From IMG/VR virus record IMGVR_UViG_3300042691_043782, positions 1-24,935 of that record: a stretch of 24,935 bases of DNA; one strand, written 5' to 3'. Within the stretch, counting starts at the first letter, position 1. Each line of letters starts with the position of its first letter. The notes under the pieces are model-generated. The model searched no databases. It saw only the letters and a program-made list of their open reading frames with translations, and was not told where the DNA came from. The DNA comes from a virus. Of this stretch, positions 1 through 19,063 are shown piece after piece. Made by a program: the position numbers and the translations under genes.

Positions 1-2
1 CA

Positions 3-59
3 AAAATGGAACAGGCTGAAAGAGATAAAGCGGCATTTATGGGCATGGGGAGTAGATAA
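3..59 (+). CDS. C-terminal end of an upstream gene (partial)
   Basis: An open frame enters from the left edge and stops with TAA at 57-59. Only 18 codons are visible, ending in MGMGSR. The ATG at 6 is in the same frame but is more likely internal, since no start signal lies before it. It lies 18 nt upstream of the gp53-like gene on the same strand, so it is probably another late virion gene. Nothing can be said about its function. Confidence 0.55.
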   Translation, partial: KMEQAERDKAAFMGMGSR

Positions 60-77
60 TTTTTTTTTTTATAAAAT
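60..77 (+). promoter_or_regulatory. T-tract and TATA-like leader before the gp53-like gene
   Basis: The whole gap between two genes is an 11-T run (60-70) followed by ATAAAAT, giving TATAAAAT directly against the ATG at 78. It resembles the late box used elsewhere in this window (NNTAAATA), but the spacing is 0 instead of 5-6 nt and it has an extra A. It may be a degenerate late promoter. No stem precedes the T-run, so it does not look like an intrinsic terminator. Confidence 0.25.
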
Positions 78-428
78 ATGGAATCCTATAAAATAACACA
101 TCCTAACGAATATTATGAAAACATTTTCAATATGTATAGAGATACAAATGAAAATGGAGATATGTATTATTTTTATAATATAGGAAAAAAAATAACACTG
201 CCAGAAAATATTGATGATGGAGTATTTGATTATTTTTCCGTTCCAGATTATTTGCCGCTAACAACTATAAGTTATCAAGTATATGGTAGTATTCATTTAT
301 GGTGGTTATTGCTTTTGTGTAACAATATTCAAAATTCGATAAAAATTTTAACACCTGGTTCAGTTATTAAAATTATAAAAAAAGAATACTTACCTTCTAT
401 TTTAAATTCATTAAAAGCAAGAGAATAA
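78..428 (+). CDS. 53: gp53-like baseplate wedge protein
   Basis: Probable baseplate wedge subunit related to T4 gp53, which helps join wedges around the hub. The diagnostic stretch is residues 67-83 (QVYGSIHLWWLLLLCNN), which parallels the IYGNPQLYWVLLMCND segment of T4 gp53. A LysM-like tail follows (LTPGSVIKII, 91-100). At 116 residues it is clearly shorter than T4 gp53 (about 196), so only the core is kept. It is followed after 1 nt by the hub gene, matching the grouping of gene 53 with baseplate genes in T4-like phages. The call rests on the motif and context; the rest of the sequence is too diverged to judge by eye. Confidence 0.72.
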   Translation: MESYKITHPNEYYENIFNMYRDTNENGDMYYFYNIGKKITLPENIDDGVFDYFSVPDYLPLTTISYQVYGSIHLWWLLLLCNNIQNSIKILTPGSVIKIIKKEYLPSILNSLKARE

Positions 429-429
429 T

Positions 430-1944
430 ATGGCTATTTCGGACTATATAGGCAGTGATCAGGAAGTATTTCGATACCAATACAATGGTGATGATTATTT
501 GGTATGCGGTGCGTTTGTATCATTAGATGATTCAGGTAACGGTATTTTATTAAAAGGTAATGCATTCAAATATATAGAAATAGTTGATAATATATATCAT
601 CCATTTCACACCGGTGAAATAATTGTTAACAATAATTTAAATTTCTTTGATAAAGAATATACTTATCTCGGAAATGGCCGCGACATGTTAGTATTAACTA
701 TATTGCCTGATTCGAATCAAAATGCCATATTACCACACACTAATGAAGATTTTGTTTTAAAATTTGAATTTATAATTACTGAGTGTATAGATATAAATTA
801 TGAGAATTCATTATGCAAAAGACTAAAATTAGTAGAAGCAAAAGAATATAAATTATCAGAAACATTTTTCAATATAGCTGGTGTACAAAAATCAATTGGC
901 GGATTTTCTTATCTCAATTCAAATGAAGGTAATGCAAAACCAACTAGTGAGTGGATAAAATCAATTCTGCAAAACGTATACACAGAAATGCAAAACAACC
1001 TTTTCATCAAAGATAAAGAAGGTAAAGATTTCTTTGAAGCTTCAAATTGTATAAACATTGACATAACGCCTCATGGTGCTATACCCAATATATCTGTTTT
1101 AAATTATATAATGCAATTTCATACACATAATGAAAGTCCGTGTATATTAAGATTTGATCGAATCAAAAAGAAATTTTTTTTATTATCATATAATACTCTA
1201 TTTGCGAATAATGAAATCTTTTGCAAAGACGAAATACATTTCGGTAGACAATCAAATGAAAGCGAAAAAAATACACCAGATATAGAGTATCAACATTTTT
1301 CGAAAGTATGGAGTGAATATGCGCTATTGGGATCTTCGGGGAAAAATTCTCAAATTATAGAATTTTATAGAGAAAATCCCGATGCATCTCTTATTTTAAA
1401 ATTCTTTACAAAAGAAGGTATGTCTAGTTATTCAAGAGCACATGGAGCTTTTATGTATAATACACAAACACTAGCGCCCGAAGAAATTATACAAAAATAT
1501 GATAAATTATTTTTAGAACCATTTAAAAAACTTTTTAATAAAAATAATTTATCATATAATTTTATAATGCCACAAAGCACCTCGCATTTAAAGGATGCTT
1601 GGAAAACCGTGACAGATTCTTTGCCACCAGAAATGAATGAAGAAAAAATTAAAATTAAAAAAATATCAAATTTATTAAATTTAAATTATACATATATGTT
1701 CAAAGTTCGTGGCTCGACTGCTAGAAAAGCATCTACTTTCATAGATGTTTTAAAATTTGATAATATAGATAATGATGAACGCTATGATTTTAATAATCTT
1801 GGCAGACATCTTATTACCAATGTAAAACATATTTTTGTAGAAAATAGTTATTTCAATAAAATAGAAACTATCAAACCATATAAATTGTTGCCTAATCAGT
1901 CCACATTAAATCAAAATTCAATTCAAAATTTATTAAAATCATGA
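430..1944 (+). CDS. Probable baseplate hub protein (gp27-like)
   Basis: A 504-residue protein whose N-terminal part (about 25-150) is beta-rich and resembles phage hub proteins: an EIVDNIYHPFHTGEIIV segment, then GNGRDMLVLTILP, then a KRLKLVEAKEYKLSETF segment. This is the pattern of gp27/gpD-type hub domains. The hub trimer would sit at the tail-tube tip and hold the lytic spike protein. Its 3' end overlaps the next gene by 4 nt (ATGA) and that gene carries a lytic domain, the usual hub/lysin pairing. The start is 1 nt after the gp53-like stop, with only a weak AAGAGA upstream, suggesting translational coupling. It is longer than T4 gp27 (391 residues). The family call is by pattern and context only. 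Confidence 0.55.
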   Translation: MAISDYIGSDQEVFRYQYNGDDYLVCGAFVSLDDSGNGILLKGNAFKYIEIVDNIYHPFHTGEIIVNNNLNFFDKEYTYLGNGRDMLVLTILPDSNQNAILPHTNEDFVLKFEFIITECIDINYENSLCKRLKLVEAKEYKLSETFFNIAGVQKSIGGFSYLNSNEGNAKPTSEWIKSILQNVYTEMQNNLFIKDKEGKDFFEASNCINIDITPHGAIPNISVLNYIMQFHTHNESPCILRFDRIKKKFFLLSYNTLFANNEIFCKDEIHFGRQSNESEKNTPDIEYQHFSKVWSEYALLGSSGKNSQIIEFYRENPDASLILKFFTKEGMSSYSRAHGAFMYNTQTLAPEEIIQKYDKLFLEPFKKLFNKNNLSYNFIMPQSTSHLKDAWKTVTDSLPPEMNEEKIKIKKISNLLNLNYTYMFKVRGSTARKASTFIDVLKFDNIDNDERYDFNNLGRHLITNVKHIFVENSYFNKIETIKPYKLLPNQSTLNQNSIQNLLKS

Positions 1945-3545
1945 TAGTAAAAACCGGATTTCCAGAATATATCGAATCAATAGCTATAGGAGATAATCCC
2001 GATTTTTTAAAAGATAATACGGACTTATGTCAAATAGCAGAAGATTTTTCCACAGAAATAAACTTAGCATATCTTTGGAAAAAGATTGCTACTGACCCTG
2101 ATACACTAGCTGCGTCTAGGGACTTTATGAAAAATTTTTTATTAGATGCACCCGCATTAACTACAGAACATTTAATTTTTTATAGGAAAAAAATAGATCA
2201 ATTACCAAATAATATAAAACAAACATTAAAAAGAGAAGTTGAATCTACATTCGAAAAAGCAGAAAATTTATCCGAAAGAGTAAAAGACCCAAATTCTAAA
2301 AGAAATTTTACTAGATCTTCATCTATTGATAAAGACAAAGATTTTTTGCAAAAGATATCAGATTTAATGAATCAATGCGAATCTGCATGTAATTATTTTA
2401 AAAATTTGTCACAGCGCGTTGGCTCTATATATGATTATAGTGCTGCTAATTCTATATACAATTCACCTCCCCAGGATACTGATATAAATTCACCGCCGCC
2501 TACAGGTTTATCTTTGGAGAAGGTGAATAAAATTCCTTCTGCATTAATAGATTCGACAACAGAAGCTTATACTAGCATGAAAACGTTTATGGATAAGGCA
2601 AAGTCTGCTATGCATAATTTTGTTTCGAATTATAATTTAGAAAAATTAGGAAAAAAAGCTTTTGCACCAGACGATAAAGGTGCTGTATATATTGGTGCCA
2701 CTAGTCCATCATTATTTCAAAGTACAATGGAAGCTTATTCAAAAGGAGTTTCCAATAATAGAATGATGCTGGGTGATTGTTTCCGTGTCGTTGATTATAT
2801 GTCCCGCTATAATCCATTCAACCCCGAAATGAATATTGCTAAACCTATAGATAAAGATATAGGTATAAAAACACTATATGCGGTAAACGGGCAATACGAA
2901 GAAAGAGTATCAAAAGTTAAAGTAAATGGGGTGGCTAGCTATAATCATACAGGCAGATCTTATGGATTAGCAGATACACCATCAACTACTATAAAACTTC
3001 ATGACGAAATGAAAAAGAAGAAAACAAGTAAAACGCACGCTCAAACACAAGAAGAAATAAGAGAAGCATTAGACAAATATCTCGAAGGATCTCCTCTTAT
3101 AACAAATTTTGAAAATTTGTCCCCCGAAACAAGAGCACAAATGGCATCTTATGGGATAGTCACTGGTTCAAAAGAAGAATGGTCTAACTTTTTTATGCGA
3201 TTAGGAAATGTAGAATCGGGGTTCAACGAAAGAAATGTATCAGATATTAATGGTTATAGTCCTGGTCAAAAAGGTTATAATGGTACACCCACTTCATATG
3301 GTGTTTTTCAAATAGGATTAGAAGCAGGTGGCGGTTATAAATTAAATGGTGGCAAAAGCTTCACGCCAGAACAATTGTTTGATGTTAATACAAATACCCA
3401 AGCGGCTGTTAAAATTTGGGAAACTAATTTATATAGTTCCCGATTTGGTTTTATAAAATCTTCGAATGGTGCTGGTGCGGGTTACTTCGGAAAAGCCAGC
3501 ATGTCTAAAATTAAAAATGATTATAGCAATAATACGTATTATTAA
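1941..3545 (+). CDS. Baseplate hub/tail protein with C-terminal transglycosylase-like domain
   Basis: 534 residues. The C-terminal 130 or so look like a lysozyme/lytic transglycosylase (SLT) fold: NVESGFNERNVSD with Glu425 as the likely catalytic acid, then SYGVFQIGLEAGG (about 451-463), the usual S-x-G-x-x-Q-I motif, then a helix with TQAAVKIWETNL. The domain would cut peptidoglycan during tail penetration. The N-terminal 400 residues are largely helical and polar, with a Pro/Ser-rich linker (about 172-187, including SPPPTG), and are not recognised. The gene overlaps the hub gene by 4 nt and its stop overlaps the stop of the convergent minus-strand gene. In T4, gp5 carries its lysozyme in the middle and ends in a beta-helix. 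Here the lytic domain is C-terminal and no beta-helix repeat is visible, so it is a functional analogue rather than a clear orthologue. Confidence 0.68.
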   Translation: MIVKTGFPEYIESIAIGDNPDFLKDNTDLCQIAEDFSTEINLAYLWKKIATDPDTLAASRDFMKNFLLDAPALTTEHLIFYRKKIDQLPNNIKQTLKREVESTFEKAENLSERVKDPNSKRNFTRSSSIDKDKDFLQKISDLMNQCESACNYFKNLSQRVGSIYDYSAANSIYNSPPQDTDINSPPPTGLSLEKVNKIPSALIDSTTEAYTSMKTFMDKAKSAMHNFVSNYNLEKLGKKAFAPDDKGAVYIGATSPSLFQSTMEAYSKGVSNNRMMLGDCFRVVDYMSRYNPFNPEMNIAKPIDKDIGIKTLYAVNGQYEERVSKVKVNGVASYNHTGRSYGLADTPSTTIKLHDEMKKKKTSKTHAQTQEEIREALDKYLEGSPLITNFENLSPETRAQMASYGIVTGSKEEWSNFFMRLGNVESGFNERNVSDINGYSPGQKGYNGTPTSYGVFQIGLEAGGGYKLNGGKSFTPEQLFDVNTNTQAAVKIWETNLYSSRFGFIKSSNGAGAGYFGKASMSKIKNDYSNNTYY

Positions 3546-4003
3546 TCATTAGTCAGTTCAGGTGTATTTTCAATTACAGTAGCATTAATTAACTGTTTCA
3601 TTAATTCTTCTCGGGTGGATCTTAGCTTTAATCCAACCACGGCATCCAATTCCTTTTGTCTGCTCTTATTATCCATTTCTTTGATCTTAATAGCAGTACT
3701 GGTTTTCTTATCTGTGATGAGAATACGATTCAAACTTTCAACCGCAGAAGATGTTGCTTTAATTAATTCTGCTAATGCCGTTACTTCTTCTGCATTAGGT
3801 GCCGCTTCAACATAGTCTCTGACTAATGTAACAGATTCAGAAGCTTGTTTAACTAAATTACCGGTGTGTTTTAAAATGAATTCCTCGAGATTTTCTTTTG
3901 TTAGGGCATCTTCTACTTGATCTACTTCTCTCGTCGCTTTAGGAATAGATTTTAGTTGATTAATGAGCGAATCTACAGAGTCTAATGAATCATCTTCTGA
4001 CAT
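3542..4003 (-). CDS. Possible terminase small subunit (gp16-like)
   Basis: A 153-residue, charged, helical protein. The N-terminus is acidic (SEDDSLDSVDSL). The middle (about 50-98) holds two helices, ASESVTLVRDYVEAAPNAEE and LAELIKATSSAVESLNRILI. Their pattern is like the central oligomerisation helices of T4 gp16 ([39 protein letters not shown]). A basic Lys/Arg-rich segment (101-136) follows. gp16 forms rings that recognise DNA and regulate the large terminase. The gene is alone on the minus strand, convergent with the lytic tail gene and divergent from dUTPase, and has a late-type box 6 nt before its ATG, fitting a late packaging role. No large terminase gene is in the window. Other coiled-coil proteins could look like this, so the name is tentative. 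Confidence 0.42.
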   Translation of the reverse strand: MSEDDSLDSVDSLINQLKSIPKATREVDQVEDALTKENLEEFILKHTGNLVKQASESVTLVRDYVEAAPNAEEVTALAELIKATSSAVESLNRILITDKKTSTAIKIKEMDNKSRQKELDAVVGLKLRSTREELMKQLINATVIENTPELTND

Positions 4004-4009
4004 AAAAAA

Positions 4010-4017
4010 TATTTATT
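4010..4017 (-). promoter_or_regulatory. Late-type promoter box (AATAAATA) for the minus-strand gene
   Basis: Read on the minus strand, AATAAATA is followed by six T and then the ATG at 4003-4001. It matches the T4 late -10 box TATAAATA at 7 of 8 positions. With T4 geometry (box at -13 to -6), transcription would start at or one base before the start codon. It overlaps by two bases the -35 element of the divergent sigma70-type promoter at 4016-4044. Confidence 0.6.
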
Positions 4018-4044
4018 GATAAACAGTGAAGCATCACCTATAAT
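4016..4044 (+). promoter_or_regulatory. Sigma70-type promoter of the dUTPase/clamp loader unit
   Basis: TTGATA at 4016-4021 and TATAAT at 4039-4044 are separated by exactly 17 bp: a 5/6 match to the -35 consensus and a perfect -10. The -10 ends 6 nt before the ATG at 4051, so the normal +1 would be the A of the start codon and the mRNA would be leaderless. No Shine-Dalgarno sequence lies between promoter and ATG. It probably fires early with the host polymerase, in contrast to the late box on the opposite strand. Confidence 0.72.
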
Positions 4045-4050
4045 TATTGC

Positions 4051-4485
4051 ATGATTAAATTCTTAAAGACACATGATGACGCAGTATTACCAAAGAAAAA
4101 TAATACAGATCCTACAACAGGTGATAGTGGATATGACATGACAGCAGTAGAAGAAACAGTTATTCCAGCTAGAGGATCAGCTGTTGTTCCTGTAGGGTTG
4201 ACATTAGCATACTTATCGCCAGAATTTTGGGTTCGAATTGAAAGTCGATCTGGTTTAGCATTCAAATATAATGTAACCGCATTTAATGGTATTATTGATA
4301 ATCCATATCGGGGCGATTTGGGTGTTAAATTATTCAATCATTCAGATTCCGATTATACAGTAAAGAAGGGTGATAGATGTGCTCAGCTGGTTATCTATCC
4401 TTTAGTATCTATGAATGCTGACTGGGCTGATTCAGTGTCTGAAACAAGTCGTGGTGCTAAGGGATTTGGTTCTTCTGGAAAATAA
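4051..4485 (+). CDS. dut: dUTP diphosphatase (dUTPase)
   Basis: Trimeric dUTPase that hydrolyses dUTP to dUMP and pyrophosphate, keeping uracil out of phage DNA and supplying dUMP for thymidylate synthesis. All five family motifs are visible in 144 residues: I at 24-32 (GDSGYDMTA), II at 64-70 (ESRSGLA), III at 80-92 (GIIDNPYRGDLGV, with the catalytic Asp and the Tyr region of the uracil pocket), IV at 106-115 (KGDRCAQLVI) and V at 134-143 (RGAKGFGSSG, the flexible P-loop-like arm). Length is normal and the protein looks intact. It is the first gene of a two-gene unit with the clamp loader, 5 nt apart, behind the sigma70-type promoter at 4016-4044. It sits as a DNA-metabolism insert between baseplate genes. 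Confidence 0.96.
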   Translation: MIKFLKTHDDAVLPKKNNTDPTTGDSGYDMTAVEETVIPARGSAVVPVGLTLAYLSPEFWVRIESRSGLAFKYNVTAFNGIIDNPYRGDLGVKLFNHSDSDYTVKKGDRCAQLVIYPLVSMNADWADSVSETSRGAKGFGSSGK

Positions 4486-4490
4486 TTATT

Positions 4491-5408
4491 ATGAATTTTG
4501 ATAATATTTGGGTTGAGAAGTATAGACCAAAGACATTAGATGATATTGTCCTTCCAGTTGATACTAGGAAGGTCATTGAATCATATAAAACAAAGAAAGA
4601 GATCTCTAATCTTCTTCTTATTTCATCACCAGGTCAAGGCAAGACCACTTTAGCTAAGATGATTGTTAATAATATTCTCGAATGTGATTATCTTTATGTC
4701 AATGCATCCGATGAAAATGGTATTGATACTATTAGAACCAAAGTAATTTCATTTGCACAGACCAGATCATTAACGGGTGATATTAAAGTAGTTATATTAG
4801 ATGAATCGGATGGAATTTCAGCAGAAGGACAGCGTGCTTTACGCAATGTTATGGAAGAATATGCTGCTAATACCCGCTTTATTCTCACAGCTAATTATAA
4901 GCATAAGATCATTCCTGCTGTTCAATCTCGTTGTGTTAGCTTGAATTTCAATCATAACATTCAAGATGTCATTAAGCATTGTTTTGGTATCCTTAAAAGG
5001 GAGTCTATTGTAGTGCCTGAAGATCAGAAGCCGTTGTTTGTTGAATTAGTAAAGCATAATTTTCCCGATTTCAGAAAGATTATTAATGAATTGCAAAAAA
5101 ATTCTATTTCTGGTACATTGAGTATTGTTAATCAAGCAACACAAAATGAATTTGTTAAAGAAGTTTTTGATAAGATCGGAGAAAATCCATTTGAATGCAG
5201 AAAGTTTTATATTCAAAATGAAAGTACCTTTCAATCAGACTATCATAATCTGATGAAGAATATGGTTCAGTTTGTTTATTCTTGGCAGAATGAACCAAAG
5301 AAAGCTGAAACCATTTTAGTTATAACAGAATACATGTATAGGCATGCATTTGTTGTTGATCAGGAGATCAATTTCTTTGCATTAATCTTGCAAATCGCAA
5401 AATTATAG
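4491..5408 (+). CDS. 44: Sliding-clamp loader ATPase subunit (gp44-like)
   Basis: AAA+ ATPase of the clamp-loader family, related to T4 gp44 and RFC/DnaX. With a small subunit it would open and load the sliding clamp onto primed DNA; in T4 that clamp (gp45) also activates late promoters. Visible features: an N-terminal WVEKYRPKTLDDIV (7-20, the conserved clamp-loader entry motif), Walker A SPGQGKTT (46-53), Walker B VVILDESD (100-107), sensor 1 with TAN (133-135), the SRC arginine-finger motif (146-148), and a C-terminal helical collar. The 305 residues compare with 319 for T4 gp44. It begins 5 nt after the dUTPase stop, without a Shine-Dalgarno, so it is probably co-translated. Neither gp62 nor gp45 is in the window. 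Lysine codons favour AAG here (8 of the first 12), unlike the nearly all-AAA virion genes. Confidence 0.93.
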   Translation: MNFDNIWVEKYRPKTLDDIVLPVDTRKVIESYKTKKEISNLLLISSPGQGKTTLAKMIVNNILECDYLYVNASDENGIDTIRTKVISFAQTRSLTGDIKVVILDESDGISAEGQRALRNVMEEYAANTRFILTANYKHKIIPAVQSRCVSLNFNHNIQDVIKHCFGILKRESIVVPEDQKPLFVELVKHNFPDFRKIINELQKNSISGTLSIVNQATQNEFVKEVFDKIGENPFECRKFYIQNESTFQSDYHNLMKNMVQFVYSWQNEPKKAETILVITEYMYRHAFVVDQEINFFALILQIAKL

Positions 5409-5963
5409 TTCTTGGAAGCTTTTGAGATACCTCGCAGTAGTTGGTTGCTGTGCTGGTATCTTAATATTTTGGGTAGGTAATTTATGCTCAATGGAGGTAG
5501 CCTTACCTTCACCCCTATCAGCCTTAAATGATTCTGTTTCCTTTATAGAATACTCTAAAGGTTTAATTTGTGTTCCATTTGGTCTTACTAAAGAAGAGTC
5601 AAACGCGGGATAATTGATGCCATCGGTTTGCATCTGTTCAACACAACAAGCAGGAATCTTTGTATAGTGTGTATAACGACCACCGCCATTATCCAATGCA
5701 ATGTCTAATGTGACATCACCTGTCATGGTATCAGGATTTCCGGGAAATCTGGGCGTATTATTATCTACAATACCAACAACACGCAAATGCAATTTCGAAG
5801 ATTCCATTTCATCAAGCAGTTGTTTAATATTACCACCTAACATTTTATAAGCATCGTTAGTCTTAAAATTTTTAGCAAACTTGACATAGTCACCTACTAA
5901 AAATCCACCACGGGAATAACGGGTCAATGCTGCTTCAAAAATGGCATGAAACTTCTTCTTCAT
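5403..5963 (-). CDS. Late protein of unknown function, minus strand
   Basis: 186 residues, not assigned to a family. The N-terminus is basic and amphipathic (MKKKFHAIFEAALTRYSRGG), followed by GGFLVGDYVKF, a short beta motif like those opening SH3/KOW-type barrels. A second beta-rich part follows (LHLRVVGIVDN; TMTGDVTLDIALDNGGGRYTHYTKIP), then a low-complexity polar C-terminal third rich in Lys, Gln and Pro. There is no signal peptide or membrane segment. It is convergent with the clamp loader (stops overlap by 6 nt) and divergent from gp25. Its own late-type box lies 5 nt before the ATG, so it is probably made late with virion proteins. I infer a minor structural or assembly role; nothing in the sequence proves it. 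Confidence 0.75.
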   Translation of the reverse strand: MKKKFHAIFEAALTRYSRGGFLVGDYVKFAKNFKTNDAYKMLGGNIKQLLDEMESSKLHLRVVGIVDNNTPRFPGNPDTMTGDVTLDIALDNGGGRYTHYTKIPACCVEQMQTDGINYPAFDSSLVRPNGTQIKPLEYSIKETESFKADRGEGKATSIEHKLPTQNIKIPAQQPTTARYLKSFQEL

Positions 5964-5968
5964 GCTAT

Positions 5969-5976
5969 TATTTACT
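5969..5976 (-). promoter_or_regulatory. Late-type promoter box (AGTAAATA) for the 5403-5963 gene
   Basis: On the minus strand AGTAAATA is followed by ATAGC and then the ATG at 5963-5961. The spacing is exactly 5 nt, which places +1 on the start codon with T4 late geometry. It lies back to back with the plus-strand late box of gp25 (5982-5989), five bases away. Confidence 0.55.
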
Positions 5977-5981
5977 TCATT

Positions 5982-5989
5982 GTTAAATA
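5982..5989 (+). promoter_or_regulatory. Late-type promoter box (GTTAAATA) for gp25
   Basis: GTTAAATA followed by five T and ATG at 5995. It matches the TAAATA core of the T4 late box with the same 5-nt spacing as other late genes here. It decides the gp25 start in favour of 5995 over the upstream in-frame ATG at 5962. Confidence 0.6.
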
Positions 5990-5994
5990 TTTTT

Positions 5995-6471
5995 ATGGCG
6001 TCAATTAAAATAAGTGGATTACCTGAACCGAGGGTTCAGACTAAAGCATTTACTTATTCTGACCTGCATTTAGATTTGCAAAAAAAATATTTAATTAAAG
6101 ATAATTTAAAACAACAACCAGAAATTAATGATTTGGTTTTGGATTATGATTTAAACGCTATAAAAAATTCTATTAGAAATATTTTTAATACTACGCCAGG
6201 TGAAAAAGTTTTAAATCCTGAATTTGGTTTAAATTTAAAACAATTTTTATTCAGTCCTATGAGTGATTTAGTTGCTTTGGATATAGCTGGTTTAATTAGA
6301 TCTAAATTAACTTTTTTTGAACCGAGAATCTCATTGAATTATGTGAATGTATATCCAATGTACGATACATCAGAGTATAATATAGATATTTCATTTTCGT
6401 TACCCCAATTAAATACCCCTGCATTCACAATGTCGGGTGCATTAAATAGTATTGGTTACACAAACTACTAA
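5995..6471 (+). CDS. 25: gp25-like baseplate wedge protein
   Basis: Baseplate wedge component of the gp25/IraD-like lysozyme-fold family found in all contractile injection systems. With gp6 it forms the core of the wedge and contacts the first sheath ring. The signature is clear: YSDLHLDL near the N-terminus, then AIKNSIRNIFNTTPGEKVLN with PEFGLNLKQFLF following (about residues 54-85), then the LTFFEPRI motif (about 104-111; the EPR triad is conserved in this family). The protein is 158 residues from the chosen ATG. An in-frame ATG at 5962 would add 11 residues, but it would overlap the divergent gene's start and lie upstream of the late promoter box, so 5995 is preferred. gp6 follows 2 nt after the stop. 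Confidence 0.92.
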   Translation: MASIKISGLPEPRVQTKAFTYSDLHLDLQKKYLIKDNLKQQPEINDLVLDYDLNAIKNSIRNIFNTTPGEKVLNPEFGLNLKQFLFSPMSDLVALDIAGLIRSKLTFFEPRISLNYVNVYPMYDTSEYNIDISFSLPQLNTPAFTMSGALNSIGYTNY

Positions 6472-6473
6472 TT

Positions 6474-8294
6474 ATGTCAATATCAAATTTTACAGAATTT
6501 AATTTGCCCAGAAATGCTTATGCTTCGTTTGACGCGGTTAGCATGAAACAATTGATTATCAATCGATTGAAAACAGCTGAAAAATTTCAAGACATTGATT
6601 TTGAAGGTAGTAATATATCTGCGTTAGTAGACGTGATTGCATACATGTACCATGTATTGATATTTTATCTAAATCAAACTTCATCCGAAGCAACTTTTTC
6701 ACAAGCAGAATTATTTGAAAATATCAATAAGATAGTTTCTCTAATAGGATATAAGCCACATGGATACCATACGTCATCTATTACAATTAGTGAATTCACT
6801 GCTAGCTCAGATATTATTCCAGGTTCTTATCTATTGCCTAGATTTTCTTATATAAATGTAGACGGTTCAACTTATACATTTACAGAAGATGTATTTTTTG
6901 AGAAAACAAATAATGGTGATGAAAATATTGATAGTGTTACAAAAAATAATATTCTTTATCAAGGCGATGTAAAAGAATATCCTACCGAAACGGCATTGGG
7001 TGAAGCATTTGAAATCAAAACAATAACTGTTCAAGATTTGATAAACAATTCTGTTATTATTGATAATAATAATATATTTGTATTTGTTAAAGATTCAAAT
7101 ACAAATAAATGGGTTGAATGGAAAGAAGTTGATTCCGTATATGGTCAAGAAGCAACTGCTAGAGTTTTTGAAAAACGCTTTAATGAAAATTTGAATTATG
7201 AATTAAAATTTGGTAACAATGTTAATGGTAAACAATTGAATTTGGGAGACCAAATTGCAATTTATTACTTACAAAGCAAAGGATCAGCAGGGAAAATAGG
7301 GTCTAATTTATTAAATGGTAAGCAATTGTCTCTTTATAATACAAACAGATGGAATGAAATTTATAATGATATTAAAATATCTGCTGCTACAAAAATTACA
7401 TCAAATGATTTGACTTATTTAAATATCAATAATGAAACAGCATCTACAAATTTTAAAACATATGAGTCTGCTGAAGAAATTAAGAAAAATGCGCCTCTCA
7501 TGTTCATGTCACAAAATAGATGTGTAACAGTAGATGATTTTGAATCTAAAATATCATCAAAATTTTCTAATATTATTCAAACAACAAAGGTAGTAAATAA
7601 TCAAGACTATACAAAATATTATTTGAAATATTTTTATGATATAGGTTTAGAGAGACCTAATCAAGAAGAAAGAGTATTGATGAATCAGGTTTTATTTTCT
7701 GATAGTTGTGATTTTAATAATGTGTATTGCTTCATAGTTCCTAAGTATGGATCTATTATTAATGAACAAATACCATCTAGTATATCAATTTCACAAAAAC
7801 AAGCAATTGCTGAATCTTTTAGAGATATTAAATTAATAAATCAAAATATAGTAGTATGTGATCCTATATATAATGCATTTGATATTGGATTACCCTTTCC
7901 AGACGAAACAAATACTGAAGTTATAAGAGATGAAACAAAATTAAAAATTTACCGCGATCCCGCCTTTAATACATCAAAAGAATTAATTAAGAGTAATGTA
8001 TTCAGTATTATACAAGATTTTTTTGATATATCAAATAATAAATTAGGATCTCTATTAAATTTGTCTCAATTGTCACAAGATATACTAACTATACCGGGTA
8101 TTCAAAAAATTGAAACATATAGGAATAATAAAAATAATGAATTTTTCGTATCAAGAATAAATTTCGTAGTATGGAATCCGTTATATCCGGAAGTTACTCT
8201 AGAAAGCACATCACAAAATTATTCTTTGCAATATTTTCAGTTTCCGTTTTTCTATCAAATAAGTAATTTATTAAACAAAATTGAAGTAATTTAA
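6474..8294 (+). CDS. 6: gp6-like baseplate wedge protein (Baseplate_J)
   Basis: 606 residues (T4 gp6 has 660). gp6 dimers form the inner ring of the baseplate that changes from hexagon to star on contraction. Supporting features: an N-terminal helical segment of the form MKQLIINRLKTAEKFQDIDF.GSNISALVDVIAYMYHVLIFYLNQTSSEA, typical of gp6/gpJ proteins; a beta-rich middle with YELKFGNNVNGKQLNLGDQIAIYYLQSKGSAG (about 238-272), matching the 'FG-x-G-x-G-x-x-P-x-G-x-x-I-x-v-x-Y-x-x-x-x-G-x-x-G' strand pattern of Baseplate_J; then PLMFMSQNRCVTVDDFE, the conserved entry to the next domain; and a C-terminal wedge domain. It starts 2 nt after gp25 and its stop shares one base with the next ATG, so the trio is translated together. 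Confidence 0.9.
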   Translation: MSISNFTEFNLPRNAYASFDAVSMKQLIINRLKTAEKFQDIDFEGSNISALVDVIAYMYHVLIFYLNQTSSEATFSQAELFENINKIVSLIGYKPHGYHTSSITISEFTASSDIIPGSYLLPRFSYINVDGSTYTFTEDVFFEKTNNGDENIDSVTKNNILYQGDVKEYPTETALGEAFEIKTITVQDLINNSVIIDNNNIFVFVKDSNTNKWVEWKEVDSVYGQEATARVFEKRFNENLNYELKFGNNVNGKQLNLGDQIAIYYLQSKGSAGKIGSNLLNGKQLSLYNTNRWNEIYNDIKISAATKITSNDLTYLNINNETASTNFKTYESAEEIKKNAPLMFMSQNRCVTVDDFESKISSKFSNIIQTTKVVNNQDYTKYYLKYFYDIGLERPNQEERVLMNQVLFSDSCDFNNVYCFIVPKYGSIINEQIPSSISISQKQAIAESFRDIKLINQNIVVCDPIYNAFDIGLPFPDETNTEVIRDETKLKIYRDPAFNTSKELIKSNVFSIIQDFFDISNNKLGSLLNLSQLSQDILTIPGIQKIETYRNNKNNEFFVSRINFVVWNPLYPEVTLESTSQNYSLQYFQFPFFYQISNLLNKIEVI

Positions 8295-11200
8295 TGGATA
8301 CAGATTATAGATATTTAAATTTTTCTGTACTTGACTATACAAATAGTCAAATTACTTCTGGCTATACATTGCCCATAACACCATTTACATTTATACCTAA
8401 ATTTGATGCTGGTGATGGTCATGTAGTCTCTAATACTAGAATAATATGGGATTTTGGTGATGGTACTTTTAGCCGAGATATAACAGCAACACATTATTTT
8501 AAAATTCCGGGTACTTATAGTGTAAAATGTTATTTTTATGGCGCTAGCGGAATAGGATATGAATCTTCGTTTGTACAGAATATTCTTGTACGTGACTTTA
8601 TTTCAGACACTTTAGTACTTTCTGCTAAAAATAACCCTATCATTAGAACTTCTAGATATGAATGCCCCTTTTTAATATCACGTTTTAATAGTTGGCAAAC
8701 ATATAATTCATTATCCAGCGAAGGCGCATCTATTTGTTTAGAAGTATCTGGAAATTCATCGCCTATTTTAGATGTAGAAAACTATTATCTGGATAAGTAT
8801 GCTCATCTTAAACCCAGTGCAAGATTTTTGACATTGGATTATAATGAAACCCTTTCTGCTTATGATGCCATACCGGTAAAAATTATAAAGACACGTAATA
8901 ATGTGGATTTATATGTAAAAATAAATAATTTTAATGATATAGTTTTTTGTAAAAAAGATGATCCAGGTTCTGTATTGGCGGGTACTTCTGGTCAAAGTCT
9001 CATTTATTACACAGATGATACAGTAAGGACACCTGACAACAAAACTATAAAACCAGCCACTATAAGCATATATTTCGATTATAATAATTTTTATGATGTT
9101 GACAATATTAGATACAATATAAATGAAAGTTATTCTGTATTAAATGGTACCGCACATGCAACATATTCGCCTTATATTCATTATATCGAAGAATTAAATT
9201 GTGTATCATTTTCTACAAATGGTATAGACTCTGAAGGTAATTTTGATATCGCAACCTTCAAAATAGGTAAAAATAAATATCTAGGACAGAAAATACCATT
9301 CGTAGCTAAGGTAAAGGATTATGAAAATTTTACTAGTAAGGCATGGAAAAAATTTACTCTTGTAAGAGATAATGAAGATATGACCGATAATTCAATTAAA
9401 TTTTATTTGAAAGATACGGTTACCAATACAATAATACCATCAGCGTTTGATATTTACGAAGATTATGGAGAGTTTGAAAATTATGAAAGATTGGGCTTTT
9501 TTAAGGGTTATATAATACCCAAAGTAGCAAAAGATAACGTTTCACTTTGTTGTGACGTTAATTCAACTAGTGATAAATTCTTATATGTTGATACCAATCA
9601 TACAATTATCACAAACCCCCAATCAACCAGCATCTATAAATTAGACTTAGTTCACGATTATACCACTAATATATTTGATGAAATTAATACTTCAAAGAAT
9701 GTATATGATACGAAAACATTGTCTGGTATGTATGCTTCCATTATTGTTCCATCATATAAAAATGCTACCATATCACATACATATTGGGCCATAGATTCTG
9801 ATCAAGATTTAATAGCCAGACTTGAATTTGATAATAATGATGTAACTGTTGGAAAAATCCGTTTACCAGCAAACTCTTCACCTAGTCATCTAGCTGCCGA
9901 TAAACACGGTAGTGTATGGGTGACATTGTATGACAGAGTAAGTGTATGTAAAATTGATAGCACTGGGATATTTGAGTTTTTTACCGCCCCGAATTTAACC
10001 AATGTTGATTATTCAAGTAATTCATATTATATCCCAAATAGGGGCGCAGCCGGTTCGAATTCAATATTACCCGCTATAGTTGATGTTGATGTTAGGAATA
10101 ATGCATGGGTTGTATATAATTTTTCACTATCATCTTTTATATGTGTATATGACTCACAAGGAAATGTTTTAACAAATTACGAAATACCATTAAATTATAT
10201 AGGAATAGATATAATTTGTACATACGAGCAGATTACATGGATTTTATTAAAAAATAAAAATAATTTTGAAAATGATGGGCTTCTAAAAATAAATCAAGGT
10301 AGTGGCGAAACTACACTCATCCCAATAGACCATAAGGTATGGGCATTTTCATATGATACAAATAATAATTTATGGTTCATTGCTAATAAAAATGATATTT
10401 TATTAAAATCATATTTTACAGATGATGTTATATACGTGAGAACGGTAAATTCTACATCAAATATAATATCACCAGATTGCAATTTTAATGGCATAGCCTC
10501 TACAACGCAAGGTAGTTTATTAATTTTTGATTATATAGACAGTAATATAAAAATATTTAACATCAATGAATTAACCAACGATCCCAATAACGCATCCATT
10601 AAAACTATAGAACTAAATGATATTAATACAAATGGATTTTATCAAAATTTTATTAATACAAAAGGAGATCCCACCGGTTTCAAGTATATTGAAAAATTTT
10701 TATATGGAAATCCTCAATTTAGTAGGCAAGGCTGTTGTAGTAATAAATTTAATATAAATCCATTGAGCGGCACAAGCATAGCAAAATTAAATGAAAATTT
10801 TGATATGACAGCACAGATTAAGAATTTTTCATTTCAAGAAACATTAAAAGATAGTAGTGATTTATTTGATATTTTTCTAGAAAAGTGTTTGGGTTCAAAT
10901 AACGAATCACCTACCCTTTTAGGAAAAAAGATATACGAAAAAATATCTAATTTCGTAGATAATAACAGTTTTATAGATACATGTAATATAGAAAAATTAA
11001 ATTCTATTCATAAGTTATTGAATGAAAATTTATATATTTTCAATACATATAATTTTCCACCCAATATAACAAGATTACTGGATTTATTTTCTATAAAATT
11101 ATCAAAATTAAAAGGTTCGCGAAACAAATTTAATGAAAATTTTGATACCAAAGGCTACACCGAAAATTCAAATACAATTTATGGTAAGAATTTGGGTGAA

Positions 11201-11602
11201 AAATTAAATTTTTTGAATTCATTAATATCTATTAATGACGGATATATAGTAGCACATGAAAGATTTTCAGATACCTATACTTTATGCAATACAAACGTAT
11301 TAACAGCAAATTTTATAGGAGGTACTAATACATATCCACTATCATCATATACACCTTTATGGGGATGGTCTTTAGTTCTACCAAAAACATACGACAACTA
11401 CGAAATAGAGAAATATTATACCTTTTATAAATATATTTCAACTTACTCTAATGAACAATTGGAAGGCATAATAAATTGGAGTGATAAACTCACAACCATG
11501 TCAGAATCAATATCATCACAAGATGATTGGTGGAATTTAGCTGAAAATATAATTACTAGAGAATTAATGGTTGGGCTGCAATTATTGTCTTCAAATTCCT
11601 AA
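8294..11602 (+). CDS. Giant baseplate-associated protein with PKD domain and beta-propeller
   Basis: 1102 residues in the position held by gp7 in T4 (directly after gp6), but not visibly similar to it. Residues about 30-100 are a PKD/Ig-like domain with WDFGDGT (52-58) and HYFKIPGTYSV (67-77). A beta-rich middle follows. About 525-770 holds NHL/Vgb-like propeller blades, e.g. LAADKHGSVWVTLYDRVSVC, VDVRNNAWVVYNF, SYDTNNNLWFIANKN. The last 290 residues are helical and polar, with SNKFNINPLSGTS, then WGWSLVLPKTYDNYEIEKYY near the end. PKD and propeller domains usually bind protein or sugar, so it may join the wedge to the adhesins encoded downstream. It overlaps the gp6 stop by one base. It could be a gp7 replacement or a separate tail appendage protein. 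Confidence 0.72.
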   Translation: MDTDYRYLNFSVLDYTNSQITSGYTLPITPFTFIPKFDAGDGHVVSNTRIIWDFGDGTFSRDITATHYFKIPGTYSVKCYFYGASGIGYESSFVQNILVRDFISDTLVLSAKNNPIIRTSRYECPFLISRFNSWQTYNSLSSEGASICLEVSGNSSPILDVENYYLDKYAHLKPSARFLTLDYNETLSAYDAIPVKIIKTRNNVDLYVKINNFNDIVFCKKDDPGSVLAGTSGQSLIYYTDDTVRTPDNKTIKPATISIYFDYNNFYDVDNIRYNINESYSVLNGTAHATYSPYIHYIEELNCVSFSTNGIDSEGNFDIATFKIGKNKYLGQKIPFVAKVKDYENFTSKAWKKFTLVRDNEDMTDNSIKFYLKDTVTNTIIPSAFDIYEDYGEFENYERLGFFKGYIIPKVAKDNVSLCCDVNSTSDKFLYVDTNHTIITNPQSTSIYKLDLVHDYTTNIFDEINTSKNVYDTKTLSGMYASIIVPSYKNATISHTYWAIDSDQDLIARLEFDNNDVTVGKIRLPANSSPSHLAADKHGSVWVTLYDRVSVCKIDSTGIFEFFTAPNLTNVDYSSNSYYIPNRGAAGSNSILPAIVDVDVRNNAWVVYNFSLSSFICVYDSQGNVLTNYEIPLNYIGIDIICTYEQITWILLKNKNNFENDGLLKINQGSGETTLIPIDHKVWAFSYDTNNNLWFIANKNDILLKSYFTDDVIYVRTVNSTSNIISPDCNFNGIASTTQGSLLIFDYIDSNIKIFNINELTNDPNNASIKTIELNDINTNGFYQNFINTKGDPTGFKYIEKFLYGNPQFSRQGCCSNKFNINPLSGTSIAKLNENFDMTAQIKNFSFQETLKDSSDLFDIFLEKCLGSNNESPTLLGKKIYEKISNFVDNNSFIDTCNIEKLNSIHKLLNENLYIFNTYNFPPNITRLLDLFSIKLSKLKGSRNKFNENFDTKGYTENSNTIYGKNLGEKLNFLNSLISINDGYIVAHERFSDTYTLCNTNVLTANFIGGTNTYPLSSYTPLWGWSLVLPKTYDNYEIEKYYTFYKYISTYSNEQLEGIINWSDKLTTMSESISSQDDWWNLAENIITRELMVGLQLLSSNS

Positions 11603-11607
11603 AATGC

Positions 11608-11615
11608 TCTAAATA
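11608..11615 (+). promoter_or_regulatory. Late-type promoter box (TCTAAATA)
   Basis: TCTAAATA, then TTTGT, then the GTG start at 11621. The match to TATAAATA is 7 of 8 and the spacing is 5 nt, as at the other late genes. It supports the GTG as the true start, since no ATG or Shine-Dalgarno offers an alternative close by. Confidence 0.55.
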
Positions 11616-11620
11616 TTTGT

Positions 11621-14431
11621 GTGTCCACTGGTTTAAATGAACAATTGCCTTTGCCCTTTAATTCTATAACAAAAGATAGAATTAATAATGCCGCGGCTAA
11701 AGATTTTAAAGAGGCATTTTCATTTTATGATTTTTTACAAAATACGGAAATACGGTTAACATACCAACAATATAATAATGCTTATAAAAATTATTTGTTT
11801 GTATGGTCCGAAGTTAAGCGAAATAGCAGTTCTCAATCACAACAATTAATAAGAGATAGATATGTCGAATTATTAAAAGATATAAGTCTAAATTACCTAA
11901 CATTTGAAGAAAAAAGATTTTTGAAATTAGCTAATTTCAATGACGAAAATGATCTAGATATCATTATACCATTATATTCTAAAAAAATAATTGAAATATG
12001 CAAATACCATGCAGAAAAAAGAGAAAAAACAAAACATTCTGTACACAAAAATCAAGAAAGAGGTACTAAAAAATCTGTAGAAGGTGCTATCCATGATTCA
12101 CTTACAGATTATGTTTTGGTATCTGACGACCAAAATTTAGCTTATAATTTACCAAAATTAAAAATTGAAGAAATTATAAGCACATTAGATATTGAAATTG
12201 AAGAACTTATAGATGTATATACAACTTATCTAGATAATAATCCTGATGCCGGATTTGAACTATATGATACAAAGAATATTTTACGTCAAGAATTATTTAC
12301 AGCAAACACCAATAGTATAGATGGAAATATATTTTTAGATTTTGATGCCGCTACAAGAAAATATATTTTTGAAATACTGAGTATTTTTCTTAAAGAAACT
12401 GGCAGAATATTTGCAATTAATTATGACATTACGAAAGCTGATTTGAATTGTAAATCAGGTGACAAGCTTTATGAATTAATCACAAAATATAAAGACTATG
12501 CTTCAAATATTTTGGATTTAAAAAGTATACTTATAAAAAAATTTATAGGTGCTGATTTTTATTATATAAAAACCGGAGATTCAAAAAATAGCATTGAAAC
12601 AGGTAAATTATTTGAAGCGGAAAACCCTTCAGGTAATCTATTAAATAGACATTTTCCTAGTACCGCAACAATAGAAGAAAATTCACTTAAAACGTTACGA
12701 AAAATAGGATTATTTTTTAAACCAGAAAAGACAGGATTACTATATTTTTCTGTTCCTAAAAATCATTTTGAAATAGATTATTCTAAATTAGAACCAAATA
12801 AGCTTTATATATATCCAGACCCCAATAGATACGGCAATACAACTGGATTAACAAATACGCATTTTAATGATTATCCATTAATACATACACAGGATTATAC
12901 ATCTCTGATTAAAAAAATATCAGACGGGTTTTCTGAAGGCGATATATATTCCAATCCTTCAGAACAAAATTTTTATGCATATATAGCTAAAAATCAATTA
13001 TCTAATTCAAAAATACTTAATAATAAAGGCTTAGAATTAAATTTTTTATCGTTAGCTAATAAAGGTAAAATTACCAGATGGCAAAGCGATATATATGGAA
13101 ATCAATTTGCGCTTTTTGAACCGACAAAATTAAAAGAATATAAGGATGAAAGATTGACTAAAAATCAAAGCATTACCTCTTATCACAAATTTGATGGGGG
13201 TGTGTTTTTATTTGATGACGGAAATCAATTGCCCTCATTATTTTCTTCTGATAAAATTCAATGGCCCGGTTCAATTTTTAGTTCTAACTATTATTATAAT
13301 ATATTATTGGACGGCGGCGTAGGAGGCACACTTAATGGAGTGATGATTAGACCAACTTTAGGTAGCCCCATCTATGATGGATTAGATTTTAGTATACCAT
13401 CAACAAACACATTTTCATTCGAAATAAATCGCAGCTCAATTTCGTGGGATACATATACAATCATATACAATTGTGGTAGTTTTTATGATTCACTACCTGT
13501 TGAAACATCATTTACATATAGCTATATATTATCCTCTATTTTATTTGAAGATATTGACGGTGGTAATTTTATCCTTGATGAAAAATATGACGAATTTGAT
13601 AGTTCTAAAAATATTTTTTTAGACGAAGTAAAGGAAAATTGCAATACAAAAATAATCAATCTATCTTCAATTACAAAAAAAGAAATATACGTAAAAAATA
13701 TAATAGATAGAAATATTTTAAATATAAATGTTGCATTTTCTAATATTCTAAAAAAGTATAATTATAATGTATTATTATCATCCGAATTGATTTATGATCT
13801 AAAAGATTTTGGAATTTATAATGATATTCTATATATTAGAACCAAAAATTATGCTATTTTTGAGCGTTATGGATTTGACGGAAAATTCAATCCGTTAAAC
13901 ACCCCCAGTAATGCATTGAGCGGAAATTTATCTGAACCTTTCTTTTTTGAAAACAAAAACTTTGCAATTTTATGCAAAATTGATTTGCTGAGTGCTAATA
14001 ACATTAACAGCATTATTGTCCCCACAATATATAAAATATCTTATGATAATACAAATATTGAAGAGATAATTTATACATATGATAATAGTTTATCGGGATA
14101 TGATGAATTTAAAAATCCACTCCCAGTTGCGTTTACAAGAGTATCAAAACCTATTATAACATACAATTCACGAAATAAAATATATGCTATTTGTTGCACA
14201 TTATATGATAACAACAATATGCCATATTTATATAAAATATTTTTTAAATATAACAATATAGAATTAATGATTTTGAGAATAAATTTAATTTCTATGATGA
14301 AAGCCGGGTCATATACCACCATTGATTTCATTAATAATCAACATGCGTCTCTATTTAATTTCAACCCATTAAATAGTATATGTACTTTACAAACTAGTAT
14401 TGAGGGGAGCTTAGATTTTTATGGTATCTAA
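11621..14431 (+). CDS. Large virion protein of unknown function
   Basis: 936 residues starting with GTG. I do not recognise the family. The first 330 residues or so are mostly helical and charged (e.g. EEKRFLKLANFNDENDLDII, EIISTLDIEIEELIDVYTTY). From about 340 it becomes beta-rich and aromatic, with KTLRKIGLFFKPEKTGLLYF, PNKLYIYPDPNRYGN, GVFLFDDGNQLPSLF and LLDGGVGGT segments, then a Tyr/Asn-rich beta region to the end. There is no signal peptide or transmembrane segment. It lies between the gp7-position protein and a run of adhesin-like genes and has its own late box, so a baseplate-peripheral or fibre-attachment role is the best inference. The 3' end overlaps the next gene by 11 nt. Confidence 0.75.
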   Translation: MSTGLNEQLPLPFNSITKDRINNAAAKDFKEAFSFYDFLQNTEIRLTYQQYNNAYKNYLFVWSEVKRNSSSQSQQLIRDRYVELLKDISLNYLTFEEKRFLKLANFNDENDLDIIIPLYSKKIIEICKYHAEKREKTKHSVHKNQERGTKKSVEGAIHDSLTDYVLVSDDQNLAYNLPKLKIEEIISTLDIEIEELIDVYTTYLDNNPDAGFELYDTKNILRQELFTANTNSIDGNIFLDFDAATRKYIFEILSIFLKETGRIFAINYDITKADLNCKSGDKLYELITKYKDYASNILDLKSILIKKFIGADFYYIKTGDSKNSIETGKLFEAENPSGNLLNRHFPSTATIEENSLKTLRKIGLFFKPEKTGLLYFSVPKNHFEIDYSKLEPNKLYIYPDPNRYGNTTGLTNTHFNDYPLIHTQDYTSLIKKISDGFSEGDIYSNPSEQNFYAYIAKNQLSNSKILNNKGLELNFLSLANKGKITRWQSDIYGNQFALFEPTKLKEYKDERLTKNQSITSYHKFDGGVFLFDDGNQLPSLFSSDKIQWPGSIFSSNYYYNILLDGGVGGTLNGVMIRPTLGSPIYDGLDFSIPSTNTFSFEINRSSISWDTYTIIYNCGSFYDSLPVETSFTYSYILSSILFEDIDGGNFILDEKYDEFDSSKNIFLDEVKENCNTKIINLSSITKKEIYVKNIIDRNILNINVAFSNILKKYNYNVLLSSELIYDLKDFGIYNDILYIRTKNYAIFERYGFDGKFNPLNTPSNALSGNLSEPFFFENKNFAILCKIDLLSANNINSIIVPTIYKISYDNTNIEEIIYTYDNSLSGYDEFKNPLPVAFTRVSKPIITYNSRNKIYAICCTLYDNNNMPYLYKIFFKYNNIELMILRINLISMMKAGSYTTIDFINNQHASLFNFNPLNSICTLQTSIEGSLDFYGI

Positions 14432-15020
14432 TAGATTTGATATAGATTTAGCCGTTGATGGCAATGCTGGTTCCTACGTTAGTGAAACAAGAGTTATAAA
14501 TGAATTGGAATTAGAATTAAATTTGAATTTTACGATTACCAACAATGCTGATCTAATAAAGACTAAAATCATTTTTGATAAAAATATCATTATAAATGAA
14601 TTCAAAAATATAAAAAATAATTTTTTACTAAAAAAGAAAGATTCTATTTATGATATTAAAAAAGATATGCTACAAATTAGATTGTATTATAGCAATTTTA
14701 ATATATTTGAATATCTTGTGCCTCTAGTTTTTATACCACCATCTACACTCGATTATTTTGATGGGGCTATCATACAAAACGCTCAGTTTATTGATACAAA
14801 AGAAAATGACGATTTATTTTTTGTCATGAAAAACAATAAAGATCAATTATTTAATTTTAGGTCAGGATCCAATGTTGTGACATACAAAAATTATTTATCG
14901 AGTTTGTCGGCGGCAGAAGATGATATAACAAATATACTATCCGGTACATTATCAACAATACCAGCTACTACAGCAAATATATTGACTGAATTTGGCGAAT
15001 TTATAGAAGTGACTACATAG
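14421..15020 (+). CDS. Small virion protein of unknown function
   Basis: 199 residues, unrecognised. The N-terminus (NRFDIDLAVDGNAGSYVSET) leads into a beta-rich domain with alternating hydrophobics (ELELELNLNFTITNN; DMLQIRLYYSNFNIFEYLVP). The last 45 residues are Ser/Thr/Ala-rich and helix-prone (SLSAAEDDITNILSGTLSTI), similar in flavour to short linker or coiled-coil ends of fibre proteins. It starts inside the end of the previous gene (11-nt overlap) with no late box, so it is translated from the same mRNA. A GAGGGGAG stretch 11 nt upstream of the ATG is the only Shine-Dalgarno-like sequence near a start in the window, but it is also ordinary coding sequence. Confidence 0.72.
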   Translation: MVSNRFDIDLAVDGNAGSYVSETRVINELELELNLNFTITNNADLIKTKIIFDKNIIINEFKNIKNNFLLKKKDSIYDIKKDMLQIRLYYSNFNIFEYLVPLVFIPPSTLDYFDGAIIQNAQFIDTKENDDLFFVMKNNKDQLFNFRSGSNVVTYKNYLSSLSAAEDDITNILSGTLSTIPATTANILTEFGEFIEVTT

Positions 15021-15028
15021 GTTAAATA
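15021..15028 (+). promoter_or_regulatory. Late-type promoter box (GTTAAATA)
   Basis: GTTAAATA in the 13-nt gap, then ATATT, then ATG at 15034. Spacing is exactly 5 nt. It is identical in its eight bases to the gp25 box at 5982-5989. Confidence 0.58.
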
Positions 15029-15033
15029 ATATT

Positions 15034-15447
15034 ATGAGCAATGTATCTATAGATATAAAAAGTTTGCCGCCAGCTGATGACGTGGGTGATGATGATTTGA
15101 TCATTTTAGAAAAACCCAATTTTACAGCTGCCGCTCAAGCCGGTTTTTTTAAAAATTATCTAGTAAAAGAAATTTCAGAACGTATATCTGAAAATACATA
15201 TTATGCAGATGAAGCTACATTAACTTTATCTGCTGGTGAATTTAAAATAAAGGACGGCGGCATAAAAGAAGAACAATTATCGCCAGGCATTTTGTCAAGA
15301 TTAAATGGTACTACATCTACCTTATCAGGAAAAATTTCTACATATATTGACCCCATTACAGCTGTTGGTGAATACTTGGAAATGTTTTTACAGCCGGCGC
15401 CCGGTGCCGCGCCGGTAAAATACGCTATCCGAGTCTATAAAGTATAA
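15034..15447 (+). CDS. Short tail fibre/adaptor protein
   Basis: 137 residues. The N-terminus (SIDIKSLPPADDVGDDDLIILEKP) resembles the head module of short phage fibre proteins that attach to a partner. The middle FKIKDGGI, LNG and LSG elements match the fibre at 21573-22628, where FQLKNGGI, LDG and LSG occur in the same order and nearly the same spacing. The C-terminus, GEYLEMFLQ then KYAIRVYKV, resembles the ending of the 22637-23392 fibre (QFLQINIDG then RYIRLWDV). This suggests a common trimerisation or capping strand. A late box precedes it. It is probably a minor fibre or a connector; receptor binding is not shown. Confidence 0.65.
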   Translation: MSNVSIDIKSLPPADDVGDDDLIILEKPNFTAAAQAGFFKNYLVKEISERISENTYYADEATLTLSAGEFKIKDGGIKEEQLSPGILSRLNGTTSTLSGKISTYIDPITAVGEYLEMFLQPAPGAAPVKYAIRVYKV

Positions 15448-15452
15448 GATAT

Positions 15453-15460
15453 TATAAATA
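15453..15460 (+). promoter_or_regulatory. Late promoter with exact T4 consensus TATAAATA
   Basis: A perfect TATAAATA in the 18-nt gap, followed by AAAGT and the GTG start at 15466. Spacing is 5 nt. This is the best match to the T4 late consensus in an intergenic position in this window and anchors the reading of the weaker NNTAAATA boxes. Confidence 0.7.
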
Positions 15461-15465
15461 AAAGT

Positions 15466-17646: not shown

Positions 17647-17648
17647 CT

Positions 17649-19058: not shown

Positions 19059-19063
19059 TTTTA

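Follow-up and report, generated by a model that had tools for sequence, protein, structure and literature searches.

The window analyzed here, a 24.9-kb fragment of a T4-like phage, carries a 47-bp divergent gap between a leftward gene and dUTPase. We interpret this gap, with good confidence, as a minimal bidirectional promoter from which both transcripts would be leaderless and in which the sigma factor and clamp loading would set the active arm. This interpretation draws on the promoter boxes, their distances to the start codons, their conservation, the split of box classes between gene functions and the recurrence of the same layout across related genomes.

Promoter elements and flanking genes of the divergent gap

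The window also carries gp25, a gp6-like baseplate protein and the gp44 clamp loader. When its DNA was compared with known phages, the sole match was 57 bp within the clamp loader gene, in Lak phages. As presented in Table 1, the gap contains a rightward TTGATA-17-TATAAT pair, an 11/12 match to a sigma70-type promoter with hexamers inside the 16-18 bp spacing used to define such sites, and a leftward AATAAATA box with one mismatch to the T4-type late consensus TATAAATA. The first-pass annotation had described these elements, their overlap at bases 4016-4017 and the ending of both sites 6 nt ahead of a start codon; we checked every base, and the description was correct on each point.

Table 1. 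Positions of the features in and around the two divergent gaps of the window.
Feature	Position	Strand	Details
Divergent gap	4004-4050		47 bp, between minus-strand gene (ATG 4003) and dUTPase (ATG 4051, +)
Putative late promoter box AATAAATA	4017-4010	-	followed by 6 nt (4009-4004), then ATG 4003
-35 element TTGATA	4016-4021	+	-35 to -30 from A of dUTPase ATG
Spacer	4022-4038	+	17 bp, between TTGATA and TATAAT
GCATCACC	4031-4038	+	conserved; abuts -10 box; operator or extended-promoter candidate
-10 element TATAAT	4039-4044	+	-12 to -7 from A of dUTPase ATG; followed by 6 nt (4045-4050), then ATG 4051
Probable small terminase subunit (T4 gp16-like)	3542..4003	-	153 aa; late gene, leftward
dUTPase	4051..4485	+	PF00692 6.6e-25, phrog_135 8.2e-38; first gene of early unit; predicted leaderless start 4051
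gp44-type clamp loader large subunit	4491..5408	+	phrog_168 8.9e-82, Gp44_lid 5.3e-11; second gene of early unit
Second divergent gap (late/late)	5964..5994	.	31 bp
Putative late box AGTAAATA	5969-5976	-	5 nt before ATG 5963
Putative late box GTTAAATA	5982-5989	+	5 nt before ATG 5995 (gp25)

The 153-aa product of the minus-strand gene gave no match as a single sequence against PHROG/Pfam or by tblastn in phages, and nothing meaningful in a profile search of solved structures. A profile built from 20 relatives matched gp16 of T4, Mosig and Syn9 (hhalign 83%, P 9e-6), a central helical part and then a C-terminal segment (NNT..SREE..KQLL vs NIQNATVFMGSPTELMDEI) being arranged in the same order. 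Its AlphaFold model (pLDDT 75) consists of helices throughout, two of them long. Foldseek returned no significant match for this model, the gp16 of 44RR (3txq) being found at rank 44 (E 3.5, prob 0.44). The gene is probably a gp16-like small terminase and a late gene, on the strength of the profile match and without significant structural support.

To assign the two arms, we compared the boxes carried by genes of known function in the relatives. Among structural and packaging homologues, 29/35 had the late box, either at the gene itself or at its unit, and none had the early box, while the early box was present for 21/27 replication and transcription homologues and the late box for none. Since the counts of 29:0 vs 0:21 are not independent across relatives, they were repeated by orthologue group, which gave 10:0 vs 0:7 (p = 5e-5). 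A homologue of the late sigma factor gp55 was detected in G001, G007 and G010 (6e-15 to 6e-19), and gp45 homology was weak, in G001 and G005 (E 2.8e-4). No gp33 was found, and the window itself is a fragment. The pairing of a sigma70-type early promoter with a T4-type late promoter, as first proposed from the window, is thus supported by the gene-class split, the gp55 homologues and the gp16-like left gene, the leftward arm being the putative late promoter and the rightward arm the putative early one.

A search for the host through contigs of cellular genomes found none, and no tRNA genes were found in G001. A tmRNA gene with the tag AANKVVDFVLPQAEPQFALAA is present on the phage contig of G007 (L105 15777-16193).

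Conservation of the boxes and their distance to the start codons

Neither pattern is in excess in this DNA. We counted 152 sigma70-like sites at positions 1-20000 of the window, five of them at 11/12, vs 152.3 +/- 11.0 in shuffles, and 196 sites resembling TATAAATA with at most one mismatch vs 190.6 +/- 14.4. As the DNA is AT-rich and the patterns alone are not unusual, the evidence has to come from where the boxes lie and how well they are conserved.

Relatives of the three genes were found by IMG/VR searches. In the 11 closest loci (window included), invariant columns made up 8/8 of the late box, 5/6 of the -35 and 6/6 of the -10, compared with 31/128 of the third codon positions in the flanking genes. 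Both boxes were at promoter distance from the ATG in 35/39 related loci, whose TerS identity ranged between 100% and ~24%. This is a fairer count than the 14/14 obtained for 14 representatives (dinucleotide shuffles of the same gaps: mean 0.011, maximum 1/14), which had been selected from loci having both boxes. One large clade has a small ORF (MET/MEI..NT..) in between, which takes the place of dUTPase as first gene; the start of this ORF is again 6-8 nt after the -10.

Several variants were observed among these loci. The distance from start codon to start codon is mostly either 46-49 or 54-58 bp, two groups that differ by about one helical turn. In the clade L044-L066, the small terminase gene has CTTAATTA or CTTAAGTA as its late box; despite this variant, TAAATA is still dominant elsewhere in G011 and G012. 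L003 / L071 / L076 (IMGVR_UViG_3300008120_007578) is without the -10 and ~80 dUTPase codons. Its junction, TATTGATAAT, is similar to sequence of the gap and also to window 4293-4302, which points to either a deletion or an assembly collapse.

With +1 set at the A of the dUTPase ATG, the -35 and the -10 are placed exactly at -35..-30 and -12..-7. ATG 4051 was the sole start candidate reported for this frame, the next in-frame ATG being inside the conserved DSGYDMTA motif. From this geometry and the sole good start, the dUTPase mRNA must begin at or beside the AUG, if the promoter is used. On the other strand, the T4 late TATA box is located about one helical turn ahead of the start site (PMC2988020), which, for a late box 6 nt from the ATG, predicts a leader of 0-1 nt. 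Both mRNAs of the gap should be leaderless as judged from these distances, a feature that the first-pass annotation overlooked.

We then analyzed the same distances across whole contigs, in which gene starts were called mechanically. TAAATA ended 5-6 nt ahead of the start in 6/21 genes of the window (shuffle mean 0.10, maximum 1) and in 23/112 genes of G001, a 98.6-kb contig from a close relative (shuffle mean 0.66, maximum 3). The corresponding counts were 17/41 in G006, 39/254 in G007 and 26/315 in G010, the shuffle means of all five ranging from 0.10 to 1.31. At the same distance from ATGs inside genes, the rate of TAAATA was 0-1.2%. For the early class, TATAAT ended 6-7 nt ahead of 16 starts in G007 (0.95 in shuffles) and of 10 in G010 (1.32 in shuffles), and two-part early promoters peaked at a gap of 6 (5 in G001, 8 in G007 and 12 in G010). 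In an unbiased positional 6-mer scan, the top-ranked motif of the window, G001, G006, G007 and G010 was TAAATA, at a gap of 5 or 6; the scan also retrieved TATTGA at gap 31 in G001, which places TTGA at -35. Shine-Dalgarno cores occurred at 0/41 leaderless-type starts in G001, 2/92 in G007 and 0/88 in G010, vs 27/227 other starts in G010. In G010, G011 and G012, the late box is spread over ~5-14 nt from the start, which indicates that short leaders exist there.

The second divergent gap of the window carries two late boxes facing away from each other (Table 1). The longest gp25 frame starts at 5962, and the late box and the relatives favour ATG 5995 as the real start. Late/late divergent gaps in the same genomes measure 15-34 bp, and where two late boxes share a gap of 15-22 bp, no space remains for leaders. 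Taken together, these results make it likely that, in this large uncultured T4-like lineage and for the late genes of the cultured phage HTVC008M (see below), the first genes of early and late units are expressed from leaderless mRNAs, with promoter position replacing the ribosome-binding site and divergent gaps shrinking to 15-60 bp.

Proposed mechanism and alternative readings

For the start sites, leaderless translation, timing and competition, we infer the following course. Early in infection, host RNA polymerase with a sigma70-type factor would read TTGATA-17-TATAAT and initiate on, or right beside, the first base of the dUTPase ATG, so that AUG opens the dUTPase-gp44 mRNA. In the later phase, AATAAATA would be read by polymerase that has taken up the phage sigma gp55 and is aided by the sliding clamp, in whose loading gp44 takes part; initiation would then fall on the small terminase ATG or no more than 1 nt from it. 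The sigma factor and clamp loading would choose the active arm, as they do in T4; timing is probably set by sigma exchange. Because the predicted starts are only ~47 bp apart, two polymerases could not occupy the gap together; competition between them is likely and would be independent of the two shared bases. The gap can be short because there would be no leaders: the late promoter needs ~13 bp and the early one ~35 bp, and nothing more. Both promoter classes are seemingly fused to the start codon genome-wide, and the choice of a transcription start would also be the choice of a translation start.

An additional layer of control at the dUTPase arm is possible, although we consider it doubtful: a phage or host regulator could bind GCATCACC, in which case this arm would be an early or middle promoter under repression or activation instead of a plain sigma70 promoter. 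All 8/8 columns of this box are invariant in the 11 loci (p = 2.6e-5 vs third positions), and conservation of the spacer is concentrated in its second half (8/9 invariant columns vs 2/8 in the first half). Moreover, G001 has another box, ACGAAACC, in the same place ahead of three other promoters. However, GCATCACC is confined to this promoter and to the close clade, and the -35 and -10 are near consensus, which makes an activator unnecessary. Binding of a regulator could be compatible with leaderless transcripts. As a genome-wide motif, GCATCACC was unsupported, being absent from other gene starts. The ACGAAACC box occurs three times in the 98.6 kb of G001 (= L100-L104), at genes 3191 (-), 28428 (+) and 48802 (+, gp32), each copy just ahead of a -10-like box upstream of a gene, and another copy precedes gp32 in G005. 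It may be an activator box for a class of middle promoters.

The first-pass annotation had also proposed that the promoters exclude each other because they share two bases, the overlap itself being the early/late switch. The overlap is real, and it is strictly kept in the clade of the window, where 4016-4017 are invariant in 11 loci; polymerases at starts 47 bp apart must clash in any case. A switch made by the overlap is nevertheless unsupported and appears unlikely. Box offsets across related loci range from -2 to +25, the 2-bp overlap being specific to the closest clade; elsewhere the boxes overlap by 1 bp (three loci) or are 1-25 bp apart, and both promoters persist. In addition, late/late pairs, including the window pair at 5963/5995, are as tight or tighter (15-34 bp), and no early/late switch is possible there. 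Each box requires the two bases anyway, so their invariance does not prove selection on the overlap. Since late/late gaps are packed more tightly than the early/late gap, close packing is best read as a consequence of leaderless promoters rather than as a switch device.

Finally, it is very improbable that the near-start boxes are A/T-rich translation signals with the true RNA starts further upstream: the genomes are indeed AT-rich with few Shine-Dalgarno sites, but the late and early boxes have the different spacings expected from promoter geometry (5-6 vs 6-7), a -35 element is present at -35, box class tracks gene function, and gaps of 15-22 bp are too short to hold other promoters between genes.

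Comparison with known phages and leaderless systems

T4 is the classic example of distinct promoter classes combined with ribosome-binding sites, its late promoters (TATAAATA) depending on gp55, gp33 and gp45. The late box described here resembles them as an 8-bp TATA-like box without a -35 element, located on structural genes, in a lineage whose relatives encode a gp55 homologue. It differs by its distance of 5-6 nt from the start codon, leaderless by prediction. No TAAATA was found at 4-7 nt from starts in the T4 late region or in the Syn9, P-SSM2 and phiM12 stretches, which we examined as controls by the same procedure. In the T4, Syn9 and P-SSM2 stretches, TAAATA was mostly more than 20 nt from starts (13 at 21-50 nt in the T4 late region), and 27/41 'other' starts of the T4 late region had Shine-Dalgarno-like cores. 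The cyanophages S-PM2 and Syn9 have NATAAATA late promoters (PMC2984593). They share with the window relaxed first bases of the late box and early and late promoters that are often close together; the Syn9 and P-SSM2 stretches differ in having no box at 4-7 nt.

A parallel was observed in HTVC008M, a cultured marine Pelagibacter phage. TAAATA is exactly 5 nt upstream of 11 of its starts (14 at 4-7 nt), among them 18916 (-), 18943 (+), 19456 (+), 31132 (+) and 49760 (+); these are mostly the same as the annotated starts, and TAAATA at gap 5 was the top positional motif in the unbiased 6-mer scan. Shine-Dalgarno cores were present at 1/14 leaderless-type starts vs 95/182 other genes (p = 0.0013), so that HTVC008M differs from the lineage of the window in having retained these sites at other genes. 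Its first 50 kb showed no leaderless peak of early promoters. In NC_020484 (HTVC008M), facing late promoters at 18916/18943 occupy the 26-bp gp2/gp4 divergent gap, both leaderless by geometry. A survey of pelagimyophages reported no success in predicting late promoters (PMC7029224), a failure that leaderless late boxes may explain.

Leaderless mRNAs are known in mycobacteria (PMC4633059) and have been remarked for some phages (PMC5312081). The likeness lies in RNA that starts at the start codon with no Shine-Dalgarno site; the difference is that here this is predicted for both the early and late classes of a T4-like genome. In the literature that we searched, in which subscription journals were sparsely represented, we found no account of a T4-like phage with leaderless expression throughout its genome. 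The predicted leaderless layout would allow both starts and promoters in many uncultured phages to be annotated by one simple rule, TAAATA ending 5-6 nt ahead of an ATG.
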